A stretch of DNA of 64,000 nt, taken from NCBI RefSeq assembly GCF_032814565.1, contig NZ_CP136521.1, forward strand, positions 2,824,501 to 2,888,500. Direction: 5' to 3'. This document shows positions 6,288 through 39,630 of this stretch, piece after piece. Source of the DNA: Hwangdonia lutea (lineage in GTDB: Bacteria; Bacteroidota; Bacteroidia; Flavobacteriales; Flavobacteriaceae). Under the pieces are notes generated by a model. The model made no database searches. It was not told the DNA's origin and saw nothing but the letters and a program-made list of their open reading frames with translations. The position numbers and the translations under genes are program-made. Numbering within the stretch: position 1 is the first letter of the stretch; the number at the start of each line of letters is the position of its first letter.

Positions 6288-6309
6288 TACCTATTAAAAT
6301 TTTTTAAAT

Positions 6310-16847: not shown

Positions 16848-18932
16848 ATGAAAACATTAAAATATATTTTTAGCACGATTTTAATTATAACTTTGGTATG
16901 GAGTTGTGAGGAAAACGTGTTTGGTGATACAGATTTCCTTGAAAGCACTAAGGCGCCCACAAATCTTTCGGCTGCAGTTAGTGTTTCACAGGACAATTCC
17001 GGGGCAGTAACCATTACACCATTAGGTGAAGGGGTTGCAAGTTATAGTATTGACTTAGGCGATGGCTCTGACATAGAAGAAGGAATTACCCCAGGCAATA
17101 GTGTTGAGCATGTTTATGAAGAAGGAACGTATGATGCAACCATCACAGCAGCTAGCGTAAACGGATTAACAACATCCATCACTCAGCCTATAGTGGTGTC
17201 GTTTAAAGCACCGGAAAATCTGGTTGTAACCATCGAGAACGATGCCGCAATCTCTAAGCAGGTTAACGTATCGGCAACAGCAGATTTTGCGCTATCTTTT
17301 GAAGCGTATTTTGGAGAACCGGGAAATGATGAACCTGTTCCTTTTAATATTGACGAAACGATATCATATCAATATGCAGAAGCTGGAACATACACCATTA
17401 GAGTGGTAGCTATGAGTGCAGCCATTGCAACTACCGAGTATACGGTAGATTTTGATGTAACCGCGATTTTACAACCATTGGAAGCTGCTCCTGCGCCTAT
17501 TAGAGCACAGGCGGATGTGATTTCAATCTATAGTGATTCTTATACAAATCCAGACCCCATTGATTACAATCCAAATTGGGGGCAATCAACAACCTATACT
17601 CAAATACAGGTTGATGGAAATAACATGATTCAATATGGCGATATTACTTATCAAGGTATCGATTTTTCTAGTGTGGCTGTTGATGCTTCGGCTATGGAGT
17701 ATATTCACGTTGATGTATGGACGGCACAAGCAGATTTTAATGCAAAAATATCTCCTATTAGTGCAGGACCAAATGAAACCGCTTACGATTTAGAGTTAAC
17801 TCAAGATCAATGGACGTCTTTTGATATTCCTTTATCTGCCTTTACAGATCAAAATCCATTGGTAGACTTTTCAAATATTATTCAATTTAAGTTTGAAGGA
17901 GCACCATCAGAAGGCGGTACTATTTTTATAGACAACCTTTACTTTTATAAAGTACCAACAGCCGTAGATACAGGTATTGTAGGAACATGGAAATTGTCTC
18001 CTACAGCTGGTGCACTAGGTGTAGGCCCATCAGTTGGAGATATCAGTTGGTGGAATTGCGATGACACCTGCGTTTCAGACAGAGCTTGTTATTATGATGA
18101 TGCTTATGTGTTTAATCAAGACGGCTCTTTCCAAAATGTTTTAGGTACAGATACTTGGGTTGAACCTTGGCAAGGTGGTAGTGATGCTTGTGGAGCACCT
18201 GTGGCACCTCACGATGGCTCAAACGCTGCAACTTACGTTTATGATGAAAATGCAGGAACGGTAACTTTAAACGGAGTAGGTGCTTTTATAGGCTTACCAA
18301 AAGCAACCAATACAGGCGAACTTACTAGTCCTGGCGATGCACCAGCATCAGTTACTTACAACGTTACTTTTGTCGACCCAAATACATTATCGGTATATAT
18401 TGAAACCGGTGCAGGTGTATTCTGGCAGTATACTTTAGTAAGAGATGGGGTGGTTAGTTCACCATTAACAGGAACATGGCAAATGGCACAAGAGGCAGGG
18501 TCATTAGGTGTAGGACCAGCTTTAGGGGATATCTCATGGTGGAACTGCGACGATGCTTGTGTTTCAGGAAGAGCATGTTACTACGATGATGCTTATGTGT
18601 TTGGAGCCGACGGTTCTTTTCAAAATGTATTGGGAACCGATACGTGGGTAGAACCATGGCAAGGTGGTAGTGATGCCTGTGGAGCGCCTGTAGCACCACA
18701 CGATGGCTCAAATCCGGCAACATTCACCTACGATTCCGGCATATTAACATTAAATGGCGTAGGTGCTTATATTGGCTTGCCCAAAGCAACAAATACAGGC
18801 GAACTTTCTAGCCCTGGCGATGCACCAGCATCAGTTGCTTATAATGTGTCTTTTATAGATAATAATACTATAAGTGTGTCTATTGAAGCTGGAGCAGGTG
18901 TATTTTGGCAATATAAGTTAGTAAGAATCTAA
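16848..18932 (+). CDS. SusE-position multidomain glycan-binding lipoprotein
   Basis: 694 residues, lipobox LVWSC with Cys20. Two PKD/Ig-like domains (about 33-119 and 120-206; IDLGDGSDIEEG) are followed by a beta-sandwich module (about 214-369; DVISIYSDSY, NPNWGQS, IFIDNLYFYK) and two near-identical modules (about 378-533 and 541-694) with a conserved Trp/Cys-rich core (DISWWNCDD, CYYDDAY, FQNVLGTDTW). No catalytic motif is seen. The position after SusD and the lipid anchor suggest a surface laminarin-binding protein. The 214-369 module also occurs twice in the protein at 32846-34411, and the repeated module is related to residues 130-317 of the next gene's GH16. I do not match these modules to a numbered CBM family. 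Confidence 0.85.
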   Translation: MKTLKYIFSTILIITLVWSCEENVFGDTDFLESTKAPTNLSAAVSVSQDNSGAVTITPLGEGVASYSIDLGDGSDIEEGITPGNSVEHVYEEGTYDATITAASVNGLTTSITQPIVVSFKAPENLVVTIENDAAISKQVNVSATADFALSFEAYFGEPGNDEPVPFNIDETISYQYAEAGTYTIRVVAMSAAIATTEYTVDFDVTAILQPLEAAPAPIRAQADVISIYSDSYTNPDPIDYNPNWGQSTTYTQIQVDGNNMIQYGDITYQGIDFSSVAVDASAMEYIHVDVWTAQADFNAKISPISAGPNETAYDLELTQDQWTSFDIPLSAFTDQNPLVDFSNIIQFKFEGAPSEGGTIFIDNLYFYKVPTAVDTGIVGTWKLSPTAGALGVGPSVGDISWWNCDDTCVSDRACYYDDAYVFNQDGSFQNVLGTDTWVEPWQGGSDACGAPVAPHDGSNAATYVYDENAGTVTLNGVGAFIGLPKATNTGELTSPGDAPASVTYNVTFVDPNTLSVYIETGAGVFWQYTLVRDGVVSSPLTGTWQMAQEAGSLGVGPALGDISWWNCDDACVSGRACYYDDAYVFGADGSFQNVLGTDTWVEPWQGGSDACGAPVAPHDGSNPATFTYDSGILTLNGVGAYIGLPKATNTGELSSPGDAPASVAYNVSFIDNNTISVSIEAGAGVFWQYKLVRI
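17982..18440 (+). repeat. Intragenic tandem duplication, copy 1
   Basis: This segment encodes residues of about 379-531 of the SusE-position protein and recurs at 18471-18929 with a period of 489 bases. The two copies share long identical peptide stretches and high DNA similarity, pointing to a recent in-frame duplication of one binding module. Confidence 0.9.
18471..18929 (+). repeat. Intragenic tandem duplication, copy 2
   Basis: Second copy of the module at 17982-18440, ending the protein. Differences are mostly synonymous or in loops (for example the start SPTAGALGVG versus AQEAGSLGVG). Confidence 0.9.
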
Positions 18933-18944
18933 AAAAATTAAATT

Positions 18945-20621
18945 ATGAAAAACATAAAATATTATATCGGAATGTTTCTGGCACTAGCTTTTGTATTTAC
19001 TAGTTGTCAAGATGATGATATCTCAATGGGCGAATTAATTGCCCCGTCTAATGTAACCATTTCTGCAGAAGTTATTGGAGTAGATGCAAGTAACCCAAAT
19101 GGGGATGGCTCTGGATTTGTAGATTTTTCTGCAACGGCAGACAATGAAATAAGTTACCATTATGATTTTGGTGATGGTAAATCCGAAATATCTTCTACAG
19201 GAAAAATAACCCATAGATATACAACCACGGGAGTGAATACGTATACGGTTGTTGTTAGTGCCATTGGCGCAGGAGGAGTTAAATCGAGTACTTCTTTGGA
19301 AGTTGAGGTGTTTAGTTCATTCTCCGACCTTGAAGCTGTTGATATGATGGCTGGAAAAGTAATTGGAGGCACTAAAACATGGTATTGGGCTTCTAATTTA
19401 CCCACTCATGTTGGTTTAGGTCCTGTTGAAGATGACTATGGAGGAGGTGAGTTTGCTTGGGAAGCGTGGTGGAATTCCATTGGACCTTGGGACGAAGAAA
19501 AATCATGTATGTACACAAACGAATTTGTATTTACACGATTAGAAGAAGGCTTAACATTCGAGCAAACCGTTGGTCCTGCATTTATACCAGGAACTTATGC
19601 TGGTGATTTAGGTGTTGCTGGCGATACCTGCCATGATGAAACCGTAGCGACAACCATGTTTGGTGTTAAAAATGTATCCTTTGCACCGTCTTCATCAAAA
19701 GCGGCCCTTGAAGGATCGTATAACGAAGCGCCTTACAGAGGGACTAGTTTTGAAATTGCCGATGGCGGATTTATGGGATGGTTTGTTGGAGCACATACTT
19801 ATGATATTATTTCAATTACCGATGATTTTTTAATTGTTAGAATTATTCAAACCGGTAACGGATTTGCATGGTATCATAAATTCACCTCTGTAAAACCAGA
19901 AGAAGGCGCGGTAGAGGAATTTGAATCTCAGTACAACACACTGGTTTGGTCTGATGAGTTTGATACAGACGGTACTCCCGATCCGGCAAACTGGACCTAC
20001 GATACCGGCGCTGGTGGCTGGGGGAACCAAGAAGTACAAACATACACTACCAATGCAGAAAATGTAACGGTTAGCGGTGGTTCTCTTATTATAACAGCAA
20101 AAGCCGATGGAAGCGGAGGTTATACCTCAGCAAGAGTAAAATCTCAAGGTTTACAAGCGTTTACTTACGGAAGAGTTGAGTTTAGAGCCAAATTACCAAG
20201 CTCTCAAGGAACTTGGCCTGCATTGTGGATGTTGGGCGAAAGCTTTTCTACCGTTGGTTGGCCAAGGTGTGGAGAGATTGATGTGATGGAGCAAACAGGT
20301 TGGGACAAAGGAACAACTTTAGGCACATTGCACTGGTTCGATACAGGAACAAACGGCAACGCGTCTTATGGCGAAACAACATCGATAGGCGATGCGTCTT
20401 CAGAGTTTCATTTATATTCTTTAGAATGGACCGAAGACAAGTTAACCGTGATGCTTGATAATGTTGCCTTTTTCCAAATGGATAACAACGCTGGTTTACC
20501 GTTTAACGACGATTTCTTTTTTATCATGAACATTGCCATGGGTGGCACCTTAGGTGGTGATATCGACCCAGCATTTACTCAAGATACCATGGAAATTGAT
20601 TATGTGAGAGTTTATCAATAA
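18945..20621 (+). CDS. GH16 endo-beta-1,3-glucanase (laminarinase) lipoprotein
   Basis: 558 residues: lipobox VFTSC (Cys21), PKD domain about 30-123 (YHYDFGDG), a Trp-rich module about 130-317 related to the repeats of the preceding protein (WEAWWNS, CMYTNEFVF), and the GH16 domain about 330-558. The GH16 active site is GEIDVMEQ with Glu444, Asp446 and Glu449, the ExDxxE form of laminarinase-type GH16 enzymes. It cuts internal beta-1,3 bonds of laminarin at the cell surface. It lies 12 bases after the binding-protein gene, and a terminator follows, closing the first transcription unit SusC-SusD-SusE-GH16. Confidence 0.94.
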   Translation: MKNIKYYIGMFLALAFVFTSCQDDDISMGELIAPSNVTISAEVIGVDASNPNGDGSGFVDFSATADNEISYHYDFGDGKSEISSTGKITHRYTTTGVNTYTVVVSAIGAGGVKSSTSLEVEVFSSFSDLEAVDMMAGKVIGGTKTWYWASNLPTHVGLGPVEDDYGGGEFAWEAWWNSIGPWDEEKSCMYTNEFVFTRLEEGLTFEQTVGPAFIPGTYAGDLGVAGDTCHDETVATTMFGVKNVSFAPSSSKAALEGSYNEAPYRGTSFEIADGGFMGWFVGAHTYDIISITDDFLIVRIIQTGNGFAWYHKFTSVKPEEGAVEEFESQYNTLVWSDEFDTDGTPDPANWTYDTGAGGWGNQEVQTYTTNAENVTVSGGSLIITAKADGSGGYTSARVKSQGLQAFTYGRVEFRAKLPSSQGTWPALWMLGESFSTVGWPRCGEIDVMEQTGWDKGTTLGTLHWFDTGTNGNASYGETTSIGDASSEFHLYSLEWTEDKLTVMLDNVAFFQMDNNAGLPFNDDFFFIMNIAMGGTLGGDIDPAFTQDTMEIDYVRVYQ

Positions 20622-20637
20622 TTAATTTGAGGGTTTT

Positions 20638-20671
20638 TTAAAAGGTCGGTTTTCCAACATCCGGCCTTTTT
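20638..20671 (+). terminator. Intrinsic terminator after GH16
   Basis: The stem AAAAGGTCGG / CCGGCCTTTT, with one G-T pair, is followed by T residues. It divides the outer-membrane module of the locus from the GH149 gene and those after it; read-through or a second promoter near ATACAA (20719) would serve the latter. Confidence 0.75.
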
Positions 20672-20737
20672 ACTCCATCCCTTATTCAAATAGCGCTTTG
20701 GTCACTTAGTCGCATGCAATACAAACGATTATAATTA

Positions 20738-23700
20738 ATGAACAATACAGTTTTAACAGAAGATAAAAACGTTTCAAACCACAGCCAAAAAGTAAAGAAC
20801 GGATTGGTGGATTTTGAAGGCGAAACGTATTATAAGATTTCCAATAGTGATGCTATGCGACCATTTTTTATGAGTATCGTTAGCGATTCAAACCATTGGA
20901 TGTTTATATCTAGCAATGGTGGTTTATCGGCCGGAAGAAAAAATTCTGAATCTTCATTATTTCCTTATTATACCGATGATAAAATCACCGAACTTGCCGA
21001 TGTTACGGGTAGCAAAACCATCTTTCAAATTCATTTAAAAGGAAAAACCTATGTGTGGGAGCCTTTTTCGGAAAGGCAAACGGGACTTTATCAAATTACC
21101 AGAAATATATATAAAAACAAATACGGCAATAAGGTTGTTTTCGAGGAAGTTAACAAAGATTTAAGGCTAACGTTTAGGTATCAATGGAGCTCAAGTAACC
21201 AATTTGGTTTTGTAAAAAAATCGACCCTTCAAAATAACTCCGATAAAATTATAAACATCACGTGTTTAGACGGTTTGCAAAATATTTTACCCGCTGGAGT
21301 AACTTCCGATATGCAAAACGCATACAGCAATTTGGTTGATGCTTACAAAAAGAATGAGTTATTGCCAGAAGTTGGTTTAGGAATATTTTCGTTAAGTGCC
21401 ATTATTGTTGACAAGGCAGAACCAAGTGAAGCTTTAAAGGCGAACACGGTATGGTCTGTTGGGGTTGAAAATCCAACATATTTAATATCATCATTGCAAC
21501 TTAATGATTTTAGAAAAGGACATGCGGTACGGCAAGAAGAAGACATTCGAGCCGAAAAAGGCGCGTATTTTACGGTTTCAAATATAGATTTACAAGCCAA
21601 TTCAGATGAAAATTGGAGATTTATTGCCAATGTAAATCAAACTATTTCAGGAATTACTCAAATTTCCGAACTCATAAAAAATGAAAACAATATTGTTGGT
21701 TTGATTGAAAATGATGTTGATTTGGGTACAGAAAACCTAGTAAAATTAACCACCGCTGCTGATGGTTTGCAAGTAACCGAAGACCCTTTAACAAACACAA
21801 GGCACTTTGCAAATACGCTTTTTAACATCATGCGTGGCGGTATTTTTGATGACGATTACAATATTGAAAAACAAGATTTTGTAAAGTACCTCTCAAAAGC
21901 CAATAAAAAAGTTTATAACAAAGAACAAAAAACCTTAGACGCTTTACCGGAATTTTTTCAGTTAAAAGATATTAAAGCTTTCGCTGAACAAAGCACGGAT
22001 AAAGATTTTAAACGCTTGTGTTTCGAATATTTACCATTAAAATTTAGCCGAAGACACGGCGACCCAAGCAGGCCTTGGAACAAGTTTTCAATAAATACAA
22101 AGAGTGAAATTGATGGCTCTAAAATTTTAGATTACGAAGGCAATTGGCGCGATATTTTCCAGAATTGGGAAGCGCTTGCACATGCCTATCCAGAATTTAT
22201 TGAGGGCATGATTCACAAATTTTTAAACGCCACAACTTTTGAAGGTTACAACCCGTACCGCGTAACAAAAGGCGGATTTGATTGGGAAGTTATCGAGGAA
22301 GACGATCCGTGGTCGTATATAGGCTATTGGGGCGATCATCAAATTATATACCTTCTAAAGTTTTTGGAGTTTATTGAAAAGCATTACCCAAATAGATTGG
22401 AAAAATTATTCAACCAAAATATTTTTGTGTATGCCAATGTGCCCTATAAAATTAAGAGTTACCAAAACACATTATTAAATCCAAAAGACACCATTGATTT
22501 CGATTACAAACTGAATGCAAAAATCAATGAAAGAAGAGCAGAAATAGGAGCAGACGGTGCCTTGCTTTTAGATAAAAATGCATCCATTTACAGGGTCAAT
22601 TTAATTGAAAAATTATTGGCGACCGTATTGGCAAAACTGTCTAATTTTATACCCGAAGGCGGTATTTGGTTAAACACCCAACGCCCCGAATGGAACGACG
22701 CCAACAACGCTTTGGTGGGCAACGGTGTTTCTATGGTTACTTTGTATTACTTAAACCGTTTTTTAAATTTCTTTGAAACGGTGGTATCGAACTTGGAAAC
22801 CGAACAGGTAGAAATATCTTCAGAATTAAGGGTGTTTTTTAATCAAGTGGTTGCCACATTCCAAAATAATAAAAATATACTTTCTGGGCCTATTTCAAAT
22901 AAAGACAGAAAAACAGTTTTAGATGGTTTAGGAAACGCAGGCAGTACATACAGAAACACAATTTATGAAAACGCTTTTTCAAGCGATAAATCTTCAATAA
23001 ACAAAACAGAGCTTTTAGAGTTTATTGATGTTACAAAATCGTATTTACAGCACACCATTGCAGCAAACAAACGCGCAGATAATTTATATCATGCCTATAA
23101 TTTAATGACGGTTGAAAATAACGAAGAAGTTTCCATTTCATATTTATCCGAGATGCTTGAAGGTCAAGTTGCCGTTTTAAGTTCGGGTTATTTGGCGCCA
23201 AAAGAAGCCTTGGATTTATTGGACGGATTAAAATCTAGCGCCCTCTTTAGAGCAGACCAATACAGCTATATTTTATACCCGAATAAAGATTTGCCGAGGT
23301 TTGATAAAAAGAATAATATTCCTTCTGAAAATGTGGAGAAATCACAATTATTAAAGCAATTGGTTGATGATGGAAACACGCAGATTATCGAAAAAGATAT
23401 TTTAGGAAACTTCCATTTTAACGGAAACTTTAATAACGCCAATAGTTTAAAAGAAGCGTTGGATGAGTTATCGGATGAAAAATATAAATCGCTAATTGAA
23501 AAAGACCAAGCACTCATTTTAGATGTTTTTGAAGATGTTTTTAATCATAAAGCTTTTACAGGGCGCTCGGGAACATTTTTTGGTTACGAAGGATTGGGGT
23601 CTATTTATTGGCACATGGTTTCCAAATTGTTATTGGCAGTTCAAGAAAATGTATTGTTAGCTATAAATACCAATGAAAGCGACGAAATAATAGGGCGACT

Positions 23701-24196
23701 TTTGGACCATTATTACGAAATTCAAGCCGGTATAGGGGTGCATAAATCACCAGAATTATATGGCGCATTTCCAACCGATCCGTATTCGCATACGCCAGCA
23801 ACTAAAGGCGCACAGCAACCAGGAATGACAGGACAGGTTAAAGAAGATGTGTTGAGCAGATTTGGAGAATTAGGCGTTTTTGTTGAAGACGGAAAACTGT
23901 TTTTTAATCCACGATTATTACGGAAATACGAGTTTTTAAAATCATCAAAAACGGTGCAATACACCAGTGTAAATAAAGAAGAGAAGACCATTCATTTGGA
24001 GGCCGACGCATTGTGTTTCACCTATTGTCAAATTCCAATAATTTATAAAATTTCAGATAACGAAACCATCAAAGTTGTGTTTAACAATAACACGATTCAA
24101 GAGTTTCAAAAATTAAGTTTAGATAAAAACATCTCAAAAATGATTTTTGAAAGAACGGGTGATATTAACCGCATTGAAGTTTCAATTATAAAGTAG
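20738..24196 (+). CDS. GH149-type beta-1,3-oligoglucan phosphorylase
   Basis: 1152 residues with no signal peptide, hence cytoplasmic. Length and motifs fit GH149, the family founded on Euglena and bacterial beta-1,3-glucan phosphorylases: SRRHGDPSRPWNKF at 437-450, LDYEGNWRDIFQNWEAL at 464-480, SYIGYWGDHQIIYLLKFLE about 535-553, and a long helical region consistent with an (alpha/alpha)6 barrel. The N-terminal 250 residues are beta-rich, as in GH94-like enzymes. It would split imported laminari-oligosaccharides with phosphate into glucose 1-phosphate, saving ATP. The GPH symporter downstream would supply the substrate. GH94 or GH161 are alternatives; both usually differ in length and motifs. 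The assignment is from memory of the family. Confidence 0.78.
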   Translation: MNNTVLTEDKNVSNHSQKVKNGLVDFEGETYYKISNSDAMRPFFMSIVSDSNHWMFISSNGGLSAGRKNSESSLFPYYTDDKITELADVTGSKTIFQIHLKGKTYVWEPFSERQTGLYQITRNIYKNKYGNKVVFEEVNKDLRLTFRYQWSSSNQFGFVKKSTLQNNSDKIINITCLDGLQNILPAGVTSDMQNAYSNLVDAYKKNELLPEVGLGIFSLSAIIVDKAEPSEALKANTVWSVGVENPTYLISSLQLNDFRKGHAVRQEEDIRAEKGAYFTVSNIDLQANSDENWRFIANVNQTISGITQISELIKNENNIVGLIENDVDLGTENLVKLTTAADGLQVTEDPLTNTRHFANTLFNIMRGGIFDDDYNIEKQDFVKYLSKANKKVYNKEQKTLDALPEFFQLKDIKAFAEQSTDKDFKRLCFEYLPLKFSRRHGDPSRPWNKFSINTKSEIDGSKILDYEGNWRDIFQNWEALAHAYPEFIEGMIHKFLNATTFEGYNPYRVTKGGFDWEVIEEDDPWSYIGYWGDHQIIYLLKFLEFIEKHYPNRLEKLFNQNIFVYANVPYKIKSYQNTLLNPKDTIDFDYKLNAKINERRAEIGADGALLLDKNASIYRVNLIEKLLATVLAKLSNFIPEGGIWLNTQRPEWNDANNALVGNGVSMVTLYYLNRFLNFFETVVSNLETEQVEISSELRVFFNQVVATFQNNKNILSGPISNKDRKTVLDGLGNAGSTYRNTIYENAFSSDKSSINKTELLEFIDVTKSYLQHTIAANKRADNLYHAYNLMTVENNEEVSISYLSEMLEGQVAVLSSGYLAPKEALDLLDGLKSSALFRADQYSYILYPNKDLPRFDKKNNIPSENVEKSQLLKQLVDDGNTQIIEKDILGNFHFNGNFNNANSLKEALDELSDEKYKSLIEKDQALILDVFEDVFNHKAFTGRSGTFFGYEGLGSIYWHMVSKLLLAVQENVLLAINTNESDEIIGRLLDHYYEIQAGIGVHKSPELYGAFPTDPYSHTPATKGAQQPGMTGQVKEDVLSRFGELGVFVEDGKLFFNPRLLRKYEFLKSSKTVQYTSVNKEEKTIHLEADALCFTYCQIPIIYKISDNETIKVVFNNNTIQEFQKLSLDKNISKMIFERTGDINRIEVSIIK

Positions 24197-24204
24197 AATT
24201 TAAA

Positions 24205-25476
24205 ATGACAACAACGCTAAGAAATACATTGATTTTGTCCATTTTAATTGTAATGGCTGGCTGTGGAAATAAGCAAAAAAAAGAAGAAAACAACGTGGCA
24301 ACAGAAAAACAGATAACAGCAAAAGATATTTTAGGGAATCCTGATTATTTGGCTATTTCTTATGGAGGTTACAGGCAAACGTCGCGGGATATTCAGCCCA
24401 CGATTGAAGAGCTTAAAGACGATATGAAGATTCTTGCCGCTATGGGTGTAAAAATATTGCGCACCTATAACGTGCAGTTGCAGCAGGCTCCAAACTTGCT
24501 AAAAGCTATTAGGCAACTGAAAAACGAAGATTCAAGCTTTGAAATGTATGTTATGCTTGGCGCGTGGATAGATTGTAAAAACGCCTGGACAGACCAAGCC
24601 CCAGACCATAATGTGGAAAGCGAGCAAAATGCAGGCGAGATAGATAGGGCGGTAGCATTGGCAAAAGCCTATCCGGATATTGTAAAGGTTATTGCCGTGG
24701 GCAACGAAGCCATGGTGCATTGGGCAACCAGTTATTACGTGCAGCCAAGCGTCATTTTAAAATGGGTGAATCATTTACAGGATTTAAAGCAAAAAGGAGA
24801 ACTTCCTAAAGATTTATGGATTACAAGTTCAGATGATTTTGCCTCTTGGGGCGGTGGCGATACGATTTACCATACACCAGATTTAGAAAAGCTGATTAAG
24901 GCCGTAGATTATATTTCTATGCATACCTATCCGTATCATAATTCACACTATAATCCAGAGTTTTGGAAAGTGCCGGAAAATGAGCAAAATTTAACGGATT
25001 TAAAAAAGACAGATGCAGCGATGTTGCGGGCTTTTGAGTTTGCAAAAAAGCAATACAATGATGTTTACAAATACGTGAAAAGCATTGATGCATCAAAACC
25101 AATTCATATTGGCGAAACAGGATGGGCAACGGTTTCAAATGGGCATTACGGTAAAGATGGGTCTCGTGCTACAGATGAATACAAATCAGGACGCTATTAT
25201 GAGTTAATGAGGACTTGGACAAACAAAGAAAATATCTCTTGTTTTTACTTTGAAGCTTTTGATGAACCGTGGAAAGATGCCAGAAACCCGTTAGGTTCAG
25301 AAAATCATTTCGGACTTTTCAAGGTCGATGGTCAAGCTAAATACGCGCTTTGGGATTTGGTTGATAAGGGTGTTTTTGAAGGTTTAACCAGAAATGGAAA
25401 CCCTATAACAAAAACCTATGATGGCGATAAAGATGCTTTAATGAAAGACGTTTTGGTGCCGCCAATAAAAGAATAA
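24205..25476 (+). CDS. GH17 beta-1,3-glucanase-like lipoprotein
   Basis: 423 residues with lipobox VMAGC (Cys20). The GH17 barrel shows an early strand LAISYGGYRQ, the acid/base motif VIAVGNEAM (Glu168) and the nucleophile motif IHIGETGWAT (Glu304), with FYFEAFDEPWK near the end, as in other clan GH-A GH17 enzymes. It is probably periplasmic or surface-anchored and shortens beta-1,3-glucan oligosaccharides. It starts 8 bases after the GH149 gene and is followed by a 2-base gap to the next gene, so it is in an operon. GH17 laminarinases of Formosa laminarin loci are the natural comparison. Confidence 0.9.
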   Translation: MTTTLRNTLILSILIVMAGCGNKQKKEENNVATEKQITAKDILGNPDYLAISYGGYRQTSRDIQPTIEELKDDMKILAAMGVKILRTYNVQLQQAPNLLKAIRQLKNEDSSFEMYVMLGAWIDCKNAWTDQAPDHNVESEQNAGEIDRAVALAKAYPDIVKVIAVGNEAMVHWATSYYVQPSVILKWVNHLQDLKQKGELPKDLWITSSDDFASWGGGDTIYHTPDLEKLIKAVDYISMHTYPYHNSHYNPEFWKVPENEQNLTDLKKTDAAMLRAFEFAKKQYNDVYKYVKSIDASKPIHIGETGWATVSNGHYGKDGSRATDEYKSGRYYELMRTWTNKENISCFYFEAFDEPWKDARNPLGSENHFGLFKVDGQAKYALWDLVDKGVFEGLTRNGNPITKTYDGDKDALMKDVLVPPIKE

Positions 25477-25478
25477 AG

Positions 25479-26486: not shown

Positions 26487-26490
26487 GGAA

Positions 26491-27987
26491 ATGAAGCAGT
26501 GTAATTATTTAACAATTTTTATAATGGCAATCGTATTATCGAGTTGTAATGTGAAAGATAAGACGTTGGATTTTGAGGTTTACGAAACATCAGAAAGTGG
26601 TAATAAGCTAACCAAAATTACCGAATTTAAAACATTGGATAGCGTAGTTAAAATAACTTTAAATCCCGAAAAAACGCTTCAAACCATTACGGGCTTTGGC
26701 GGTTCTTTTACGGAGTCTTCAGCTTATTTGCTGAACAAGTTGAGCCAAAAAAACCGCGATACCATTCTGCAAGCTTATTTTGGTGAAGAAGGCGCACGCT
26801 ATTCATTAACAAGAACCCACATTAGTTCCTGTGATTTTTCATTGAATAATTACACCTACGCACCAGTTGAAGGTGACATGGAATTGGAAAATTTCTCAAT
26901 TGAAGAAGATCGTGACGATTTAATTCCAATGATAAAAGATGCAATGGCGATTTCAAAAGATGGTTTTAAAATTATAGCCTCACCTTGGACCGCACCACCA
27001 TGGATGAAAGATAACAATGCCTACGTTGGCGGCAATTTATTGCCAAAATATTACGATACATTTGCCTTGTTTTTCTCAAAATATCTAGATGCTTACAAAG
27101 CTGAGGGCATTGATATTTGGGGTGTAACACCTGTTAACGAGCCTCACGGAAATGGCAATAATTGGGAAAGTATGCATTTTACGCCCGAGGAAGAAACGGA
27201 CTTTGTTCAAAATCATTTGGGACCAAAGCTTGAAGCTGATGGTAAGGGAGCTGTTAATATTCTTGGTTACGATCAAAATAGAGCCGGTTTAAAAGAATGG
27301 GTCGATGCCATGTTCGCTACCGATGAGTCTTCAAAATATTTTGCCGGTACTGCCATTCATTGGTACGAGAGCACTTATGATTATTTCCCCGAAGCTTTAC
27401 AATACGCGCACAACAAGGCACCAGATAAATACTTGATTGAAACCGAAGGCTGTATAGATTCACAAATACCTGTTTGGCAAGACGATGCTTGGTACTGGAA
27501 AAAAGAGGCCACAGATTGGGGCTACGATTGGAGAGAGCCGGAAAAAAAATATTTACATCCAAAATACGCACCGGTAAATCGTTATGCTAGAGATATTATT
27601 GGCTGTTTAAACAATTGGGTTGATGGTTGGATAGACTGGAATATGGTTTTAGACCGACAAGGCGGACCAAACTGGTTTGAAAATTGGTGTGTTGCTCCGG
27701 TTATTGTAGACCCTGAAAAGGATGAGGTATACTTTACGCCACTTTACTATACCATGGCTCACTTTAGCAAATATATTAGGCCTGAGGCTAAAGTTATTTC
27801 GCATGATAATTCAGATGAATCGCTTATGGTAACAGCTGTTAAAAATCCTGATGAATCCATCGTATTGGTGTTATTCAATGAAGGTGATACTGCCAAAAGT
27901 TTCCATATAAATTTAAACGAACAGTCTATCGATTTTTCAATAAATGAAAAAGCCATTCAAACCATAGTCATTCCAAGTCAACAATAA
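26491..27987 (+). CDS. GH30 beta-1,6-glucanase-like lipoprotein
   Basis: 498 residues with lipobox VLSSC (Cys19). GH30 features include TITGFGGSFTESSAYLL, SPWTAPPWMKDN, acid/base motif VNEPHG (Glu217), nucleophile region IETEGC (Glu319 likely) and the C-terminal beta domain. GH30 enzymes in laminarin loci of Formosa remove beta-1,6-linked glucose side chains, which clears the backbone for GH17 and the phosphorylase. It starts 4 bases after the preceding gene. Exo versus endo action on beta-1,6-glucan cannot be decided here. Confidence 0.92.
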   Translation: MKQCNYLTIFIMAIVLSSCNVKDKTLDFEVYETSESGNKLTKITEFKTLDSVVKITLNPEKTLQTITGFGGSFTESSAYLLNKLSQKNRDTILQAYFGEEGARYSLTRTHISSCDFSLNNYTYAPVEGDMELENFSIEEDRDDLIPMIKDAMAISKDGFKIIASPWTAPPWMKDNNAYVGGNLLPKYYDTFALFFSKYLDAYKAEGIDIWGVTPVNEPHGNGNNWESMHFTPEEETDFVQNHLGPKLEADGKGAVNILGYDQNRAGLKEWVDAMFATDESSKYFAGTAIHWYESTYDYFPEALQYAHNKAPDKYLIETEGCIDSQIPVWQDDAWYWKKEATDWGYDWREPEKKYLHPKYAPVNRYARDIIGCLNNWVDGWIDWNMVLDRQGGPNWFENWCVAPVIVDPEKDEVYFTPLYYTMAHFSKYIRPEAKVISHDNSDESLMVTAVKNPDESIVLVLFNEGDTAKSFHINLNEQSIDFSINEKAIQTIVIPSQQ

Positions 27988-28026
27988 AATCACCTGCATC
28001 TTTGCTAACTAAAAACTAAATAAAGT

Positions 28027-29436
28027 ATGTCTAAAACGAATAAAGTACCCATGGGGCAAAAAATAGCTTTCGGGATTGGTATGTTCGCTAACCAAATGTT
28101 TCCCGCTATTTTGGGCATTTTTATGGTAGTTCTAGTGCAAGATTTAGGTTTTCCGGGGTGGATGTGGGGTATCCTGTTTTTCCTTCCAAGAGTGTTTGAT
28201 GCTTTTACCGACCCAATTATGGGTTTTATATCAGACAATACAAAGTCAAAATGGGGAAGACGCAGGCATTATGTGTTTCTTGGCGCCTTAATTATGGGCA
28301 TCTCGTTTGTTGCCATGTGGCAATTATACAGGGCAGATGGTTTAGATTATAATTTTACTTACTTTTTAATTTGGTCGTTTGTTTTTTATTTGGGGTTAAC
28401 CATTTTTAGTGTGCCTTATGTGGCGATGGGTTACGAAATGAGCAACGATTTTCATGAACGCACAGATATTATGGCCATTGCCCAGTGGATAGGGCAGTGG
28501 GCTTGGGTAATTGCGCCTTGGTTCTGGGTGTTTATGTACGATCAAAACCTGTTTGAATCCGCCGATGTAGCCACAAGAAGTTTGGCTGTTTGGGTAGGAA
28601 TCGCTTGTATGGTTTTTGCCATGGTACCGGCAATTTTTATTAAAAGCAAATCAACAATTAATGAGAATTATGCAGCTTTAAATTTTAAGACCGTTGGCGG
28701 TAGTTTAAAAAAGATTTTCGAAGGATTTAAAGAAGCCTTTAAGTCGGTGCCTTTTCGGCAATTATGCATCGCCACGTTTTTTATTTATAACACTTTTTAC
28801 ACCATAGCAAGCTTTTCATTTTTTATTGTTGTTTACCATTTGTTTGGAGGCGATGCGGGAGCAGCGGGTATTTGGCCTACTTTATTTGGTAGCGTTGGCG
28901 CTTTGGCAACCACCTTTATAGTTATTCCAATAATTACTGCAATGTCTAAAAAAATAGGGAAAAAGAAAGCCTTTATAGTCTCTCAAACAATCTCAATTAT
29001 AGGGTATATTCTACTTTGGTTTTTGTTTATTCCAGGCAAACCGTATATGTTTTTATTTGCGCTTCCGTTTTTTTCCTTTGGTATCGGAAGCCTGTTCACA
29101 TTAATGATGTCGATGACTGCAGATGTTATTGATTTGGACGAACTAAACACAGGACAACGACGCGAGGGCGTTTTTGGCGCTATTTATTGGTGGATGGTTA
29201 AGTTCGGTTTTGCCATCGCTGGATTGTTAACAGGAACTATTATGTCGGCAGTTGGTTTCGATCCAAATTTAGCAACACAACCCGAAGGTGCCGTTTTGGG
29301 GCTTAGGGTGTTTTATTCAGGATTTCCAATCGTAGGAACTTTAATTGCTATTTATGTGATGCGTAATTATGATTTAACCGAAGAACGAGCCAATGAAATA
29401 AGCGAGCAGTTAGAAAAACGTAAAAGCACCGTATAA
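28027..29436 (+). CDS. GPH-family sugar:cation symporter (MFS)
   Basis: 469 residues, very hydrophobic, with about 12 transmembrane helices. The N-terminal GMFANQMFPAIL and the loop FTDPIMGFISDNTKSKWGRRRHYVFLGA are the signature of the glycoside-pentoside-hexuronide symporter family, and MTADVIDLDELNTGQRREGVFGAIYWWMVK near residue 360 is typical too. It should carry laminari-oligosaccharides across the inner membrane to the cytoplasmic GH149 and GH17. It sits between GH30 and the cytoplasmic GH17 in the same operon. Confidence 0.93.
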   Translation: MSKTNKVPMGQKIAFGIGMFANQMFPAILGIFMVVLVQDLGFPGWMWGILFFLPRVFDAFTDPIMGFISDNTKSKWGRRRHYVFLGALIMGISFVAMWQLYRADGLDYNFTYFLIWSFVFYLGLTIFSVPYVAMGYEMSNDFHERTDIMAIAQWIGQWAWVIAPWFWVFMYDQNLFESADVATRSLAVWVGIACMVFAMVPAIFIKSKSTINENYAALNFKTVGGSLKKIFEGFKEAFKSVPFRQLCIATFFIYNTFYTIASFSFFIVVYHLFGGDAGAAGIWPTLFGSVGALATTFIVIPIITAMSKKIGKKKAFIVSQTISIIGYILLWFLFIPGKPYMFLFALPFFSFGIGSLFTLMMSMTADVIDLDELNTGQRREGVFGAIYWWMVKFGFAIAGLLTGTIMSAVGFDPNLATQPEGAVLGLRVFYSGFPIVGTLIAIYVMRNYDLTEERANEISEQLEKRKSTV

Positions 29437-29446
29437 ACACAGTATT

Positions 29447-30358
29447 ATGTCACTCAAAACAGAAAACATATTATCGCTCTCTGGTGGCAATCATGACAAT
29501 AAAACGACAAAAGGATTGCAAAATACATTTCGTAGAGTACTAAAAAGCGGCATGCACGGTATTTGCTTTAGTGCTTATGAAGAGGGGCAAGAAGCTGGAG
29601 ATCAAATTACCGAAAAGCAAATTAGAAGGCGTATGAAAATCATTAAACCATACACCAACTGGATTCGTACTTTTTCATGTACCGATGGCAATGAACTTAT
29701 TCCGGTAATTGCTAAGGAATTTGGCATAAAAACAATGGTGGGCGCTTGGTTAGGTAGTGATGCCGATATTAATAAAAGGGAAATAGCGGGTCTAATTAAA
29801 CTCGCAAAGGAAGGCTATGTAGATATTGCGGCCGTTGGAAACGAAGTGATGTACAGGGGCGATTTAACCGAAGCGGAGCTTTTAAGTTTTATGCACCAAG
29901 TTAAAGCAGCTATTCCAGAAGTTCCTATGGGTTATGTTGATGCGTATTACGAGTTTGCAAAACGCCCAAAAATCACTGAAGCTTGCGATGTCGTTTTAGC
30001 AAATTGTTATCCTTATTGGGAAGGCTGCAGTTTGGAATATGCTTTAATTTACATGAAGGATATGTTTTATAGAGCATTAAAAGCGGGCAAGGGAAAAAAA
30101 GTTATAATTACCGAAACTGGATGGCCTAGTCAAGGTTCAGGGTTGCATGGCGCAGTACCATCGTACGAAAACGCCATAAAATATTTTATTAATACGCAAG
30201 AATGGGCCAAAGAAGACCAAATTGATGTGTTTTATTTTGCATCTTTTGATGAATCTTGGAAAGTTGGAACCGAAGGCGACGTAGGCGCTTATTGGGGTTT
30301 ATGGGATAAAGATGAAAAACTAAAATATAAAAACAATATTCTTGGTTTTAATACCTAA
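29447..30358 (+). CDS. Cytoplasmic GH17 beta-glucanase-like enzyme
   Basis: 303 residues with no signal peptide, unlike the GH17 lipoprotein upstream. Acid/base motif IAAVGNEVM (Glu133) and nucleophile motif VIITETGWPSQG (Glu224) are clear, followed by FYFASFDESWK and WGLWDKDEKLKYK. It starts 10 bases after the symporter gene, so it likely acts inside the cell on imported beta-glucan oligosaccharides, as hydrolase or transglycosylase, alongside GH149. It closes the main operon; the 482-base stretch after it has no gene. Confidence 0.9.
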   Translation: MSLKTENILSLSGGNHDNKTTKGLQNTFRRVLKSGMHGICFSAYEEGQEAGDQITEKQIRRRMKIIKPYTNWIRTFSCTDGNELIPVIAKEFGIKTMVGAWLGSDADINKREIAGLIKLAKEGYVDIAAVGNEVMYRGDLTEAELLSFMHQVKAAIPEVPMGYVDAYYEFAKRPKITEACDVVLANCYPYWEGCSLEYALIYMKDMFYRALKAGKGKKVIITETGWPSQGSGLHGAVPSYENAIKYFINTQEWAKEDQIDVFYFASFDESWKVGTEGDVGAYWGLWDKDEKLKYKNNILGFNT

Positions 30359-30542
30359 CAATTCTTTCTTCAAAAAAGCGATAATTTTCTTTTAATATCG
30401 GTTTTAATATACTTAGGAGTCATCACCAAATCCAAACGGATATTTTAATATTACAGAAATTAAATACCCTAAACGGTGCTGTAATTATCTTTCTGTCAAG
30501 CTAATCGGAAATAAAAACTTTATTCTTACGGTTCAGCTTAAA

Positions 30543-30570
30543 CATTCACCACTACATCACCCATACAAAT
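30543..30570 (+). repeat. 28-base promoter repeat, copy 1
   Basis: Identical to 32549-32576. It lies 298 bases before the GH16 start codon, against 297 for the other copy. It contains the ATACAA motif. Confidence 0.85.
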
Positions 30571-30686
30571 TGGGATTTCTCAACCAGAAAAGCTTTTTTT
30601 TAGAATAGGTGGTATTCCTATTAAACCTCTATTATTAGTGTGCTTTGTTTTACTGAAAACGCAGTAAATTAGAATTTTGATTGTGT

Positions 30687-30700
30687 TGTATGCTTTTTGT
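30687..30700 (+). promoter_or_regulatory. Shared motif TGTATGCTTTTTGT
   Basis: One base differs from the copies at 12086 and 32690. It lies 154 bases before the start codon of the secreted GH16 gene and probably marks co-regulation with the SusC operon. Confidence 0.4.
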
Positions 30701-30840
30701 AGTGCTGTTATATGTGAATTTCATAAAGTTTTATTAATAAATTTATTAAAGTGATAAACTCAGTGTTTGTTTAGTGTTAAACAAAGCGTAATATTAATAC
30801 TGATTTTGTTTTTTTTAATATTAATTCTTAAAACTAAATT

Positions 30841-32379
30841 ATGATGAAAAAAATTACATTATTTCTTTCAAAAATCAAATGGTCTATTATGGCATTGGTA
30901 TTTATGGCGAATGTGTCTGCTTTCGGACAAACCCCTGGAGGCGATTGGTATTTAAAATGGAGCGACGAGTTTAACGGGAACTCCTTAAATACGAACCATT
31001 GGAATGTTGAAGTTGGAAACCTGAATATTAACAATGAATTACAAACCTATACTGCCGATAGGGTAACTGTTGGCAATGGACATTTAACCATATTTGCTTC
31101 TTGGGATTTTCAAGAAAACCGGATGGAATCAGGACGAATAAATTCGGCTGATAAAATAGTATGGGATGAAGGCTATACCGAGGCCAGAATAAAATTTGAA
31201 GACTGGGACTGGAATGGTAAAGATGCGACTTTTGCTGCATTTTGGTCTCTGGGAGAAAGTTTTGGAAATCCCAATATAAGTGCTCACAATGTCAATGGTG
31301 GTTCAGCATGGCCTAGTTGCGGGGAAATCGATATGATGGAAATGGTGCCCAATCATGATGCTATTTCTACCATTCATTACAATCCATCATTAGACTATAA
31401 TGGCGATGGTGATTCAGACGTTCAAACCTGGCCACACAACTGGGTTTATCATACCGTAAGTAGGCCTGCCCCAGACTGGACGCAGTGGCACACCTTTGGT
31501 TGCGAAAAAACAGACACCGAACTTAAGTTTTATATAGATGGTGTCTATTTTGGTTCCCATTATTTAGATGATACGAGGAAAGAGTATCACCAACCTTTCT
31601 TTTATATTTTAAATGTGGCCATCGGTGGTGATTTGGCGGGCAATCCTCCTAACAATTATGACGTTTATGTAAAAATGAATGTTGATTACGTGCGTTATTA
31701 TAAACGTCCTTGGACGATTTCATTAAAAGGCAGCAACAACAAATTTGTGAGTTCCAATAATGGGACATCAGGCATGATGTGTGATCGCCCAAGCGTTGGA
31801 GACTGGGAAAAATTTGATATTATTGACCGAGGTGACGGAAAAGTGGCTATAAAAGGATCTAACGGAAAATATGTAAGCTCTAATAATGGTGCATCGCCAA
31901 TGATGTGCGACCGATCAAGCATTGGCGGGTGGGAAGTATTTACCTGGGTTGATTTGGGCAACTCGCAATTTGCTTTAAAAGGAAGTAATGGGAAATACGT
32001 AAGTTCTGAAGGTGGTAACGCTGGAATGATGTGTAACCGTTCGAGCATCGGTGCCTGGGAAACATTTAACTATCAAACAACTTCCCACGCCGCTAAAAAT
32101 AGCGCCAAGGATAAACAATTATTATCTGATGATATGGATGAAAAGTTAATATCGGATATTAAGGTATTTCCAAACCCCGTAATAAACAAGCTAAACATTA
32201 ATACTAAAGAAAAAAATTATACATTATCCGTTTTCGATATGCTAGGAAAGCAAGTTTATGAAGCTTCTGAAATAAATGGTGCCACTACAATTAATGTAGA
32301 AAAAATGAACTCCGGATTGTATGTTATAAAAATAAACTCCAAAAACGGCTCGCACACACAACTCGTAGTGGTTAATTAA
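30841..32379 (+). CDS. Type IX-secreted GH16 laminarinase with fascin-like repeats
   Basis: 512 residues; start at 30841 or at the adjacent ATG 30844. Signal peptide to about residue 30 (SAFGQ); GH16 domain about 35-290 with active site GEIDMMEM (Glu162, Asp164, Glu167); three beta-trefoil/fascin-like repeats about 293-415 (SLKGSNNKFVSSNNG, AIKGSNGKYVSSNNG, ALKGSNGKYVSSEGG, each followed by MMC[DN]R); C-terminal type A sorting domain about 435-512 (VFPNPVINKLNI ... LYVIKI). It should be released or surface-attached through the type IX system and cut extracellular laminarin. The repeats may bind glycan. It has its own promoter and terminator. Confidence 0.92.
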   Translation: MMKKITLFLSKIKWSIMALVFMANVSAFGQTPGGDWYLKWSDEFNGNSLNTNHWNVEVGNLNINNELQTYTADRVTVGNGHLTIFASWDFQENRMESGRINSADKIVWDEGYTEARIKFEDWDWNGKDATFAAFWSLGESFGNPNISAHNVNGGSAWPSCGEIDMMEMVPNHDAISTIHYNPSLDYNGDGDSDVQTWPHNWVYHTVSRPAPDWTQWHTFGCEKTDTELKFYIDGVYFGSHYLDDTRKEYHQPFFYILNVAIGGDLAGNPPNNYDVYVKMNVDYVRYYKRPWTISLKGSNNKFVSSNNGTSGMMCDRPSVGDWEKFDIIDRGDGKVAIKGSNGKYVSSNNGASPMMCDRSSIGGWEVFTWVDLGNSQFALKGSNGKYVSSEGGNAGMMCNRSSIGAWETFNYQTTSHAAKNSAKDKQLLSDDMDEKLISDIKVFPNPVINKLNINTKEKNYTLSVFDMLGKQVYEASEINGATTINVEKMNSGLYVIKINSKNGSHTQLVVVN

Positions 32380-32400
32380 TGGTTTTAAAACACATTGCTA

Positions 32401-32437
32401 AAAAGCTGTTTCGTTTACTTCGAAGCAGCTTTTTTTG
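32401..32437 (+). terminator. Intrinsic terminator after the secreted GH16
   Basis: AAAAGCTGtTTCG pairs with CGAAgCAGCTTTT around a short loop and is followed by a T run. Confidence 0.8.
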
Positions 32438-32548
32438 TACACTTTATTACAGGAATACAAATTAATTTACGTCCGATTATGTACTGCAATCAGCTTTTCT
32501 TCAGGGTAATATAAAGTAATGGATAAATTGCCTGCAATAAAATATGTC

Positions 32549-32576
32549 CATTCACCACTACATCACCCATACAAAT
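32549..32576 (+). repeat. 28-base promoter repeat, copy 2
   Basis: Identical to 30543-30570 and at the same distance from its start codon (297 versus 298 bases). Confidence 0.85.
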
Positions 32577-32689
32577 AGCGATATCTCAACTAGTAAAGCA
32601 TTTTCATAGAAAGGTTATAAACCGTAATAAAGCCCTGTAATTGCACTGTGTTTTGTAAAAAACTCGGTAAAGCATGGTTTTTATTGTGT

Positions 32690-32703
32690 TGTATACTTTT
32701 TGT
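32690..32703 (+). promoter_or_regulatory. Shared motif TGTATACTTTTTGT
   Basis: Identical to the motif at 12086-12099 before SusC. It lies 156 bases before the start codon of the next gene. Confidence 0.4.
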
Positions 32704-32845
32704 AGTGCTGTTAAATGTGAATTTCACACAATTTTGTCAATATATTTATAAAAATGACAAAGTTGGTTTTTAGTAGGTTGAAGTTTGACCTCCCGTAAAT
32801 ACTGGTTTTGTTTAAATATTAACTAATTCATAAAACTAAATTACG

Positions 32846-34411
32846 ATGAAAAAAATTACCTTATTACTTATCTTTTTGACTGTGTCTATTGGATTTGCGC
32901 AGCCAACAACCAATGCTACCGATCCGCAGGCTAGGGATGCAGGAGATGTTATTTCTATTTTTAGTGGTGCCTATACCGATGTGGCTGGGTCGAATTTCAA
33001 CCCAAACTGGGGTCAATCTGGTTTTGGCACTGCAAATACGGCTTTCGATCCCGGGACGGGAAATAACGTGTTAGCTTATCCCAACTTTAATTATCAAGGG
33101 ATTCAATTTGGATCTACCCAAAACATCACAGGAATGGAATTCTTGCATGTCGATATTTATATCGATGGAACATTCAATCCTAATGTATTTGTGATTAGTT
33201 CAGGTGCTGAAATTGCCCATGCCATAACAAATACGGGAGCAAATACATGGATTAGTGTAGATATCCCGGTATCTGGAATTACGGGTGACACTTCTAATGC
33301 TATTCAGTTCAAGTTTGACGGTGGCAATGGATCTACTGACGCTATCTATGTAGATAACTTATATTTTTGGAAGGCAGCAACAGACCCTGCAACAGATGCA
33401 ACATTAAGCGACCTGCAGGTTGACAACGTTACGATTACTGGCTTTGGATCAGCTACAACTTCTTATGATTATTCCGTTCCACCGGGAACCTCAGTAGTAC
33501 CGCAAATTACTTTGGCGACTACAACCAATGCCGGTGCATCACGTGTTATAACTCAAGCGTCTGGTATTCCCGGAACAGCTACGGTGGCGGTTACAGCTTC
33601 AAATGGGATAGATACGGAAACATATACAGTTAGTATTTTTGCTAGTGGCCCTCCAACAGCTGCTCCATTACCCCCAAATAGAGCACCTGTCGATGTGAAG
33701 TCGATTTTTAGTGACGCCTATACCGGTATTACAATTGATACTTATGATACACCATGGTGTCCTGGAACAACAACAGAAGAGTCGATTTCCGGTAATGCCA
33801 TGAAAAAAGTTAGTGGCTTAGGTTGTGAGGGTGTAGAATTCATAAACGGTAGATTTGACGCTTCAGAATTTACTCATTTTCACATGGACATTTTTACAGA
33901 GACAGCAACCATGGATAAGAGTTTCAATATTAAATTTTCCAACTGGGATAATGGCACCTCAGAATCTAACGCTATAGAATATTCTGTAACCAATGCAAAT
34001 TTCTTAACCAATCCCAATCCAGGTACATGGATATCTTTAGATATACCTTTATCTGATTTTACCGCTGGAAGTAGAAATGATATAACACAGTTTATAATAA
34101 CATCAGATTTGGGAACTGTTTATTATGATAATTTATACTTATATAAAGGAACGCCTTTAAGTACCGATGACTTCGAATTATCTCAATTCAAAGCATACCC
34201 CAACCCAACCCATGATAGTTGGACAGTGACATCAAAAAATCAAAAGATAACAGCCGTTCAAGTGTTTGATGTTTTAGGAAAACAAGTCATAGCACTTTCT
34301 CCAAATTCAAGCGAAGCCAACATTTATGGATCGGGCTTAAAAACCGGATTGTATTTTGCACTAATACGTGCCGAGAATAGTTTACAAAGTATAAAGCTTG
34401 TAAAAAAATAA
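32846..34411 (+). CDS. Type IX-secreted non-catalytic protein with two putative glycan-binding modules
   Basis: 521 residues. Signal peptide 1-19 (SIGFAQ). Two copies of a beta-sandwich module, about 25-176 (DVISIFSGAYTD, NPNWGQS, IYVDNLYFWK) and 275-434 (DVKSIFSDAYTG, SLDIPLSDF, VYYDNLYLYK), are separated by a cadherin-like domain about 180-266. A type A sorting domain closes it (AYPNPTHDSWTV ... LYFALIRA). The module is clearly the same as residues 214-369 of the SusE-position lipoprotein. No glycosidase motif is present. I infer an extracellular laminarin-binding protein. Expression is probably tied to the GH16 gene through the duplicated promoter. Confidence 0.85.
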   Translation: MKKITLLLIFLTVSIGFAQPTTNATDPQARDAGDVISIFSGAYTDVAGSNFNPNWGQSGFGTANTAFDPGTGNNVLAYPNFNYQGIQFGSTQNITGMEFLHVDIYIDGTFNPNVFVISSGAEIAHAITNTGANTWISVDIPVSGITGDTSNAIQFKFDGGNGSTDAIYVDNLYFWKAATDPATDATLSDLQVDNVTITGFGSATTSYDYSVPPGTSVVPQITLATTTNAGASRVITQASGIPGTATVAVTASNGIDTETYTVSIFASGPPTAAPLPPNRAPVDVKSIFSDAYTGITIDTYDTPWCPGTTTEESISGNAMKKVSGLGCEGVEFINGRFDASEFTHFHMDIFTETATMDKSFNIKFSNWDNGTSESNAIEYSVTNANFLTNPNPGTWISLDIPLSDFTAGSRNDITQFIITSDLGTVYYDNLYLYKGTPLSTDDFELSQFKAYPNPTHDSWTVTSKNQKITAVQVFDVLGKQVIALSPNSSEANIYGSGLKTGLYFALIRAENSLQSIKLVKK

Positions 34412-37908: not shown

Positions 37909-37919
37909 ATAATAAAAAA

Positions 37920-39428: not shown

Positions 39429-39456
39429 ATTAGTGGCAATTGTTTGAGTTAGTTTG

Positions 39457-39496
39457 AAAAGAGAGTTTTAGTTTAAAAAACTTAACTCTCTTTTTT
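39457..39496 (+). terminator. Intrinsic terminator after SusC-SusD
   Basis: AAAAGAGAGTT pairs with AACTCTCTTTT around an A/T-rich loop and continues into T residues. Confidence 0.85.
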
Positions 39497-39630
39497 ATCT
39501 TACAAAACCAACAAAACACCATAATATTATTAATTTCGCTTTATGAAACTTCCATAGCGAGAATTCGATACCCAGGGATATGATTATATGGAAGCTACAT
39601 GTGACCATTGAACAACAATAATTATAACAC

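Follow-up and report, generated by a model that had tools for sequence, protein, structure and literature searches.

What do three related modules, carried by two apparently non-catalytic proteins, do in a beta-glucan locus of Hwangdonia lutea? The locus lies in a 64,000-nucleotide stretch of the genome (contig NZ_CP136521.1, positions 2,824,501 to 2,888,500; the whole stretch is called the window here), and the proteins are a 694-residue lipoprotein in the SusE position and a 521-residue protein with a type IX secretion tail. The module they share, of ~160 residues, is called MOD below. A first-pass annotation of the window had proposed that it represents a new laminarin-binding family. We consider it probable, judging from sequence, a structure model and analogy to known systems, that MOD is a non-catalytic beta-jelly-roll carbohydrate-binding module (CBM) for beta-1,3-glucan, that is, laminarin and its close relatives.

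The three modules are present in the two open reading frames as the first-pass annotation had described, with the motifs DVISIYSDSY...DNLYFYK, DVISIFSGAY...DNLYFWK and DVKSIFSDAY...DNLYLYK. Its positions hold, and only the bounds shift, profile-based limits being slightly wider than the residues 214-369, 25-176 and 275-434 it had given (Table 1). The copies are homologous to each other: pairwise phmmer scores were 93.4, 59.8 and 38.9 bits, versus maxima of 6.1, 8.3 and 12.8 bits among 200 shuffles per pair, so that chance resemblance is ruled out. A search of the whole H. lutea genome gave these three copies and none besides. Neither Pfam nor NCBIfam had a match across MOD in either protein; the same scans found PKD in the lipoprotein, the type IX tail in the secreted protein and no catalytic family in either, in agreement with the absence of catalysis that had been claimed. 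The lipoprotein ends in two further modules (residues 378-533 and 541-694, called WW), which match the N-terminal module (GN) of the neighbouring GH16 enzyme, a likeness that had been missed.

We compared the occurrence of MOD with that of beta-glucan genes in 397 Flavobacteriaceae genomes. MOD was found in 190 of them, GH17 in 130 and both in 114 (odds ratio 17.9, p 2e-30), meaning that 114 of the 130 GH17-bearing genomes carry MOD. The PL7 alginate lyase, used as a control, was present in 101 genomes, 60 of them with MOD (odds ratio 1.87, p 0.008), and the association of MOD with GH17 persisted in PL7-positive and PL7-negative genomes alike. These p values are too small because the genomes are related, but the contrast with the PL7 control stands. 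Beyond the roughly half of sampled Flavobacteriaceae genomes that carry MOD, some of the named loci with MOD come from four other phyla, several of these only as metagenome-assembled contigs.

The same association is seen at the level of loci. In the 80 named loci, which are the best among 312 relatives and so lie close to the query, GH16 was within reach in 73, GH17 in 26, GH30 in 18 and any of the three in 74; among those without a glucanase, L038 and L047 are contigs that end beside the MOD gene. The SusC-SusD-SusE gene order is preserved among the relatives' loci, and in the named loci SusD immediately precedes 58 of the 98 MOD genes. In 40 MOD loci from GH17-negative genomes (those without Pfam GH17), GH16 was found in 34, versus none of 40 control SusD loci (p 2e-16); two of the 40 MOD loci hold a GH17-like gene by similarity to those of the window. 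For this set 45 of the 76 MOD-positive, GH17-negative genomes were hand-picked, and the loci, of 35 genomes, were taken from the strong matches (G185:C18, G067:C9, G067:C12, G007, G240, G288 and G319 were omitted). The control loci came from 10 of the 35 genomes, hand-spaced along a capped list after exclusion of the known MOD loci, and by similarity to the window's genes contained SusC in 40 of 40 and SusD in 35 of 40. A gene was counted as GH16 here if phmmer aligned it with the catalytic part of one of the window's two GH16 enzymes, so other GH16 types could escape in both sets. The named and the GH17-negative sets are not independent, since, going by gene order and the lengths of the contigs, some loci are in both (for example L028/L179, L034/L180 and L044/L181). 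The co-occurrence of MOD with GH16, GH17 and GH30 genes, which the first-pass annotation had named as a check, is found for GH17 in genomes and for all three in loci. Formosa laminarin loci share the enzyme families of the window, and Formosa GH30 and GH17 were shown to act on laminarin, according to the accessible part of PMC6246565.

We modelled MOD copy 1 (17466-17963) with AlphaFold2 (mean pLDDT 96.8, pTM 0.92). The model shows a beta-jelly-roll whose closest counterparts are CBM11, CBM29 and CBM30. The top Foldseek match in the PDB was CBM11 with a mixed-linkage tetrasaccharide (6r31, E 7e-7), followed by CBM29, CBM30 and a xanthanase; VIA-align gave Z 13.6 to CBM30 and 13.3 to CBM11. The likeness is to the CBM11 of Clostridium thermocellum Lic26A-Cel5E (1v0a, 6r31), a binder of mixed-linkage glucan, at 14 to 20 percent identity; CBM11, however, belongs to a clostridial cellulosome enzyme and not to surface binding proteins. 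The match lists are dominated at the top by carbohydrate-binding modules but also include proteins that are not binders (a complex I assembly factor, for instance), and a shared fold alone is no proof of function.

Conservation points to one face of the predicted fold. Outside the window, 223 stretches of the module were at least 130 residues long with E <= 1e-12; thinning at 78 percent identity left 126, of which we aligned 118 together with the three window copies; the eight dropped were divergent copies of the Balneola lineage (L055, L059) and of Thalassomonas (L080). In the resulting 121 rows (numbered as in the 166-residue construct) S20, W116, D156 and N157 are invariant, and Y26, W38, H81, D83 and Q140 nearly so. 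H81, D83 and an aromatic residue at 85, kept in 115, 117 and 115 members, respectively, take turns with hydrophobic residues on a single predicted strand, and this alternation suggests that they face outward, where they may form part of a binding face.

Among experimentally determined structures, the one most relevant to the ligand is PDB 8QX6, titled 'Novel laminarin-binding CBM X584', the title being our source for laminarin binding by X584. It stands at row 38 of the VIA-align list for the MOD model (Z 10.4, rmsd 3.4, 136 aligned residues, 10 percent identity), and profile-profile comparison by hhalign relates X584 to MOD with a probability of 95.7 percent over 91 columns; the two modules thus have the same fold and are remotely homologous. 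By sequence search, MOD is nonetheless no member of the X584 family: the X584 profile scored 16.0 bits on the window MOD (E 0.062 for 100,000 sequences) and the MOD profile 6.0 bits on 8QX6, both below threshold, and in a quick tree built from 84 rows a fully supported branch splits MOD from X584. We regard the two as distant sisters and as separate sequence families, although both are beta-jelly-rolls found in the same type of surface protein, in the same slots on the same PKD stem and in the same kind of GH16 locus.

The structure can be placed in its genomic setting. 8QX6 matches residues 244-391 of a Christiangramia echinicola SusE-position protein (E 7e-47), just before three MODs of the same chain, and recurs with 148 residues at 100 percent identity in another Christiangramia genome, G403. 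There, a gene between SusD and GH16 encodes a 904-residue protein with four X584 modules on the same PKD stem, the last of which is the 8QX6 stretch; a search of this genome gave no MOD match. The N-terminal module of the G403 GH16 is of the same family as that of the window's GH16 (multi-row GN profile, E 4.4e-37; a 3-row profile missed it). For one Christiangramia relative with X584, a PDB sequence search had no match at E <= 1.

These results bear on whether MOD already has a name. A 2024 study by Zuehlke et al. in Environ Microbiol reportedly describes four CBM102 modules in a surface protein of C. forsetii and one CBM103 on its GH16_3. Because this four-plus-one layout fits G403, we take G403 to be C. 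forsetii, X584 to be CBM102 and the GH16-linked module to be CBM103. The four-X584 protein in a genome without a MOD match speaks against an early suspicion, drawn from an abstract, that MOD itself is CBM102. MOD is likewise no member of the GH16-linked family, presumably CBM103. WW and GN form one family (hhalign 99.4 percent), and the window's WW modules and GH16 N-terminal module are homologous to the Christiangramia GH16 module by GN profile and hhalign, whereas MOD aligned to GN and WW with only 0.5 and 0.2 percent, and the PKD stem also gave no alignment to MOD. MOD and the GH16-linked type (as the WW pair) are found in one lipoprotein, yet are non-homologous by profile.

Searches against other known modules gave little. 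Pfam CBM models had no match in either window protein, CBM_11 none at E <= 1 in either whole protein; MOD member 1 alone matched CIA30 only (12.9 bits), and CBM_11 appeared at E <= 1 in 7 of the 121 members, at best 2e-4. Searched against PDB sequences, the window proteins and a three-row profile had chance or tail matches only, and the 121-row profile gave CBM11 at E 0.06. CBM numbers up to CBM113 are already in use according to PMC13235733, where CBM113 (UKD) is described as a nine-stranded barrel that binds alginate and cellulose; going by this description, MOD does not resemble it. The accessible parts of the Maribacter, Muricauda and Formosa laminarin papers contain no description of MOD; in the Maribacter paper, laminarin binding by the GH16_3 N-terminus is inferred from homology to Bacteroides SGBP-B. 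Text searches of the literature for CBM102 and CBM103 found no paper, with poor coverage of subscription papers, and none naming MOD was found in searches that mostly lie outside such papers and so are no proof of absence.

A CBM family of its own is thus plausible for MOD, distinct from the two modules that we presume to be already named. The novelty that the first-pass annotation had claimed is upheld against Pfam, NCBIfam, PDB sequences, X584 and the GH16-linked module, and is unproven beyond these because the CAZy numbers extend to CBM113. That MOD falls within a recognised family (CBM102 broadly defined, or any from CBM104 upwards) is possible but, in our view, doubtful: the profile-profile relation to X584 and the length of the CAZy list speak for it, while the sub-threshold scores in both directions, the supported tree branch and the Christiangramia genome with four X584 modules and no MOD match speak for separate families.

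We examined the layouts of MOD proteins. In 39 SusE-position proteins with the stem (lipobox, two PKD-like domains and a first MOD), most C-terminal parts consist of two modules in tandem, of one of several kinds: WW as in the window, MOD, X584, or CBM4-like (Pfam CBM_4_9 in L008, L056 and L075; in L021 by alignment, where DUF642 alone matched at E <= 1e-4). These rows were hand-chosen for the presence of the stem, so its constancy is a property of the chosen set. Among 139 MOD proteins of 120 loci (some present twice), the most frequent layouts were stem-MOD-WW-WW (23), MOD-MOD-MOD (17), stem-MOD-MOD-MOD (14) and stem-MOD-X584-X584 (13); in Christiangramia the order can be reversed, with X584 first. 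X584 shares an open frame with MOD in 61 of 153 MOD frames (redundant loci and four doubly called domains counted) and occupies the same slots as MOD on the same stem. That unrelated modules, including a reported laminarin binder, swap in the same slots is strong indirect evidence of a shared ligand. MOD is found in up to seven copies per protein, and fusion to a GH16 with an EIDxxE motif was seen in four MOD proteins, which represent two lineages.

The constant first place of MOD after the stem in the 39 aligned proteins, where the C-terminal pair (WW, X584 or CBM4-like) varies, could also mean that MOD is a structural spacer or docking domain derived from a former binding module, and that the pair binds instead. 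We think this improbable. Other layouts exist, and in the stem-MOD-MOD-MOD proteins MOD itself is the exchanged pair; its high copy number, its place as the main content of secreted proteins and its stemless GH16 fusions also fit a spacer poorly, and H81, D83 and the aromatic residue at 85 appear to be conserved beyond what a spacer would need.

In nine loci (L019, L020, L024, L028, L032, L034, L043, L179 and L189) two adjacent genes, of about 300 and 370 residues, replace the single GH16 lipoprotein, so that the putative N-terminal binding module is a separate protein.

Several observations weigh against beta-1,3-glucan as the ligand of MOD. The 80 named loci are biased towards the query. MOD keeps the same place in the stem proteins, so gene context partly tracks the SusE position rather than the ligand. 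The profile alignment with X584 is limited to 91 columns. GH16 is absent from 6 of the 40 loci of the GH17-negative set (L182, L186, L187, L191, L192 and L213). Of these, L182 is a 5.4-kb contig, and L191 contains GH81, a beta-1,3-glucanase family: a coiled-coil protein with MOD and WW (4407-10543) adjoins a GH81-CBM6 protein there, SusCD not being within reach. L192 and L213 have MOD genes with neither SusC nor GH16 within reach, and no glucanase was seen in them either. L186 and L187 are SusCD loci with no glucanase within reach by similarity to those of the window; their SusE-position proteins (L186 7292-11830, 1513 residues; L187 7288-11682, 1465 residues) carry five and seven MODs, and in L186 a GH95 gene lies directly upstream, with most genes farther upstream of uncertain identity. 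Finally, weak MOD relatives (E 1e-10 and 2e-8) occur in SusCD loci beside PL7 alginate-lyase genes, and form long branches inside the MOD side of the quick tree; towards the margin of the family, the ligand may therefore differ. Their SusE-like proteins (L258 9016-10497, L259 8072-10009) belong to an alginate-locus branch of the same superfamily as MOD.

The loci L186 and L187 and the PL7-locus relatives would fit a general glycan binder, with the ligand set by the locus: laminarin in the window and other glycans elsewhere. We hold this to be rather unlikely. Among the 40 control SusD loci, a set cleared of known MOD loci beforehand, none contained MOD (two contained X584), and some L186 and L187 copies group in the quick tree with GH16-fused copies of the same genomes, so beta-glucan is still possible for them. 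We prefer a beta-1,3-glucan-binding module in general, for which the gene context, the GH16 fusions, the fold and the reported laminarin binding of the sister module argue together, as the earlier proposal of beta-glucan binding had supposed. The specific ligand that it named is another matter: the enzyme families of a laminarin locus are present (GH16, GH30 and two GH17 by Pfam), but 'laminarin' is narrower than the evidence, because MOD is also found in GH16 loci of GH17-negative genomes, once beside GH81 and in a few loci with no glucanase within reach, with weak relatives beside alginate lyases.

If MOD binds beta-1,3-glucan, the MOD of the lipoprotein would come first among the binding units of a surface glycan-binding protein (SGBP) beside the SusCD importer, raised on a stem of two PKD-like domains, and the two MODs of the type IX-secreted protein would form a secreted or cell-surface glucan tether, standing beside GH16 and GH17 enzymes that would themselves be secreted or at the surface. 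As a surface protein, the 694-residue lipoprotein is of the known SGBP kind. Bacteroides SGBP-B (7kwb, 6e57) is a lipoprotein beside SusCD with a string of domains; 7kwb was the best Foldseek match of the whole lipoprotein (E 1.4e-8), but the whole-length TM-score was only 0.11 and the domain set differs. The chances seem to us about even that MOD both founds a new beta-1,3-glucan-binding CBM family and serves as the invariable opening unit of a plug-in surface protein, in which a lipobox-PKD-PKD-MOD stem carries a tandem pair exchanged among MOD, X584, the GH16-linked type and CBM4-like modules, as if retuning recognition.

Table 1. Features of the locus (positions in the window; residues are those of the encoded protein).
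Feature	Position	Strand	Remarks
SusC-like transporter	12166..15306	+	named from sequence reading
SusD-like protein	15326..16828	+	named from sequence reading
SusE-position surface lipoprotein (putative), 694 residues	16848..18932	+	lipobox (VWSC, by sequence reading), two PKD-like domains (the second by sequence reading), MOD, two WW modules
MOD copy 1, residues 209-372	17472..17963	+	in the lipoprotein
WW module 1, residues 378-533	17979..18446	+	of one family with module GN of the GH16 lipoprotein
WW module 2, residues 541-694	18468..18929	+	about 79% identity with WW module 1
GH16 lipoprotein	18945..20621	+	Pfam GH16
N-terminal module (GN) of GH16 lipoprotein	19329..19910	+	between PKD and catalytic domain
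GH17 enzyme	24205..25476	+	PF00332, 30.1 bits, barely above the cut-off of 28.2
GH30 enzyme	26491..27987	+	PF02055
MFS sugar transporter	28027..29436		PF13347; upstream of second GH17
Second GH17 enzyme	29447..30358	+	PF00332
GH16-like enzyme	30841..32379	+	repeat domain, type IX tail; Por_Secre_tail and FRG1/DUF7910 matches
Type IX-secreted protein, 521 residues	32846..34411	+	signal peptide (sequence reading), MOD, linker of ~90 residues, MOD, sorting tail
MOD copy 2, residues 19-180	32900..33385	+	in the secreted protein
MOD copy 3, residues 268-437	33647..34156	+	in the secreted protein; apart from copy 1 in the tree
Type IX sorting tail, residues 451-521	34196..34408	+	Por_Secre_tail / TIGR04183

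The genes follow each other in the order SusC, SusD (directly upstream of the lipoprotein gene), the 694-residue lipoprotein, the GH16 lipoprotein, a 1152-residue protein, GH17, a TIM-barrel enzyme, GH30, the MFS transporter, the second GH17, the GH16-like enzyme and, directly downstream of it, the secreted MOD protein. The GH16-like enzyme had no GH16 match in Pfam; it resembles the GH16 at 18945 (54 bits over the best stretch) and has the motif EIDMME. Its residues from about 290 to 415 form a threefold repeat (KGSN.K.VSS..G....C.R) matching FRG1/DUF7910, probably a beta-trefoil, which could be a further glucan-binding module. The 1152-residue protein (20738-24196) had no Pfam match; 35 of the 80 named loci contain a homologue. 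Synteny with Formosa suggests that it may correspond to the GH149 phosphorylase of PMC6246565. At 34654-40557, downstream of the locus, a second SusCD pair is followed by a gene resembling N-acetylneuraminate lyase/dihydrodipicolinate synthase, both by sequence reading. Neither a scan for phage families nor a search for plasmids was informative.

Marine microalgae store much of their carbon as laminarin, and which bacteria capture it depends partly on binding at the surface. Were MOD to bind beta-1,3-glucan, this module of 190 of the 397 sampled Flavobacteriaceae genomes would become a marker for laminarin use. It would also allow a better reading of proteomes, in which proteins encoded by such loci are listed as 'PKD-domain' or 'hypothetical' (as in PMC6246565), and the exchange of binding modules on one stem would become directly testable.

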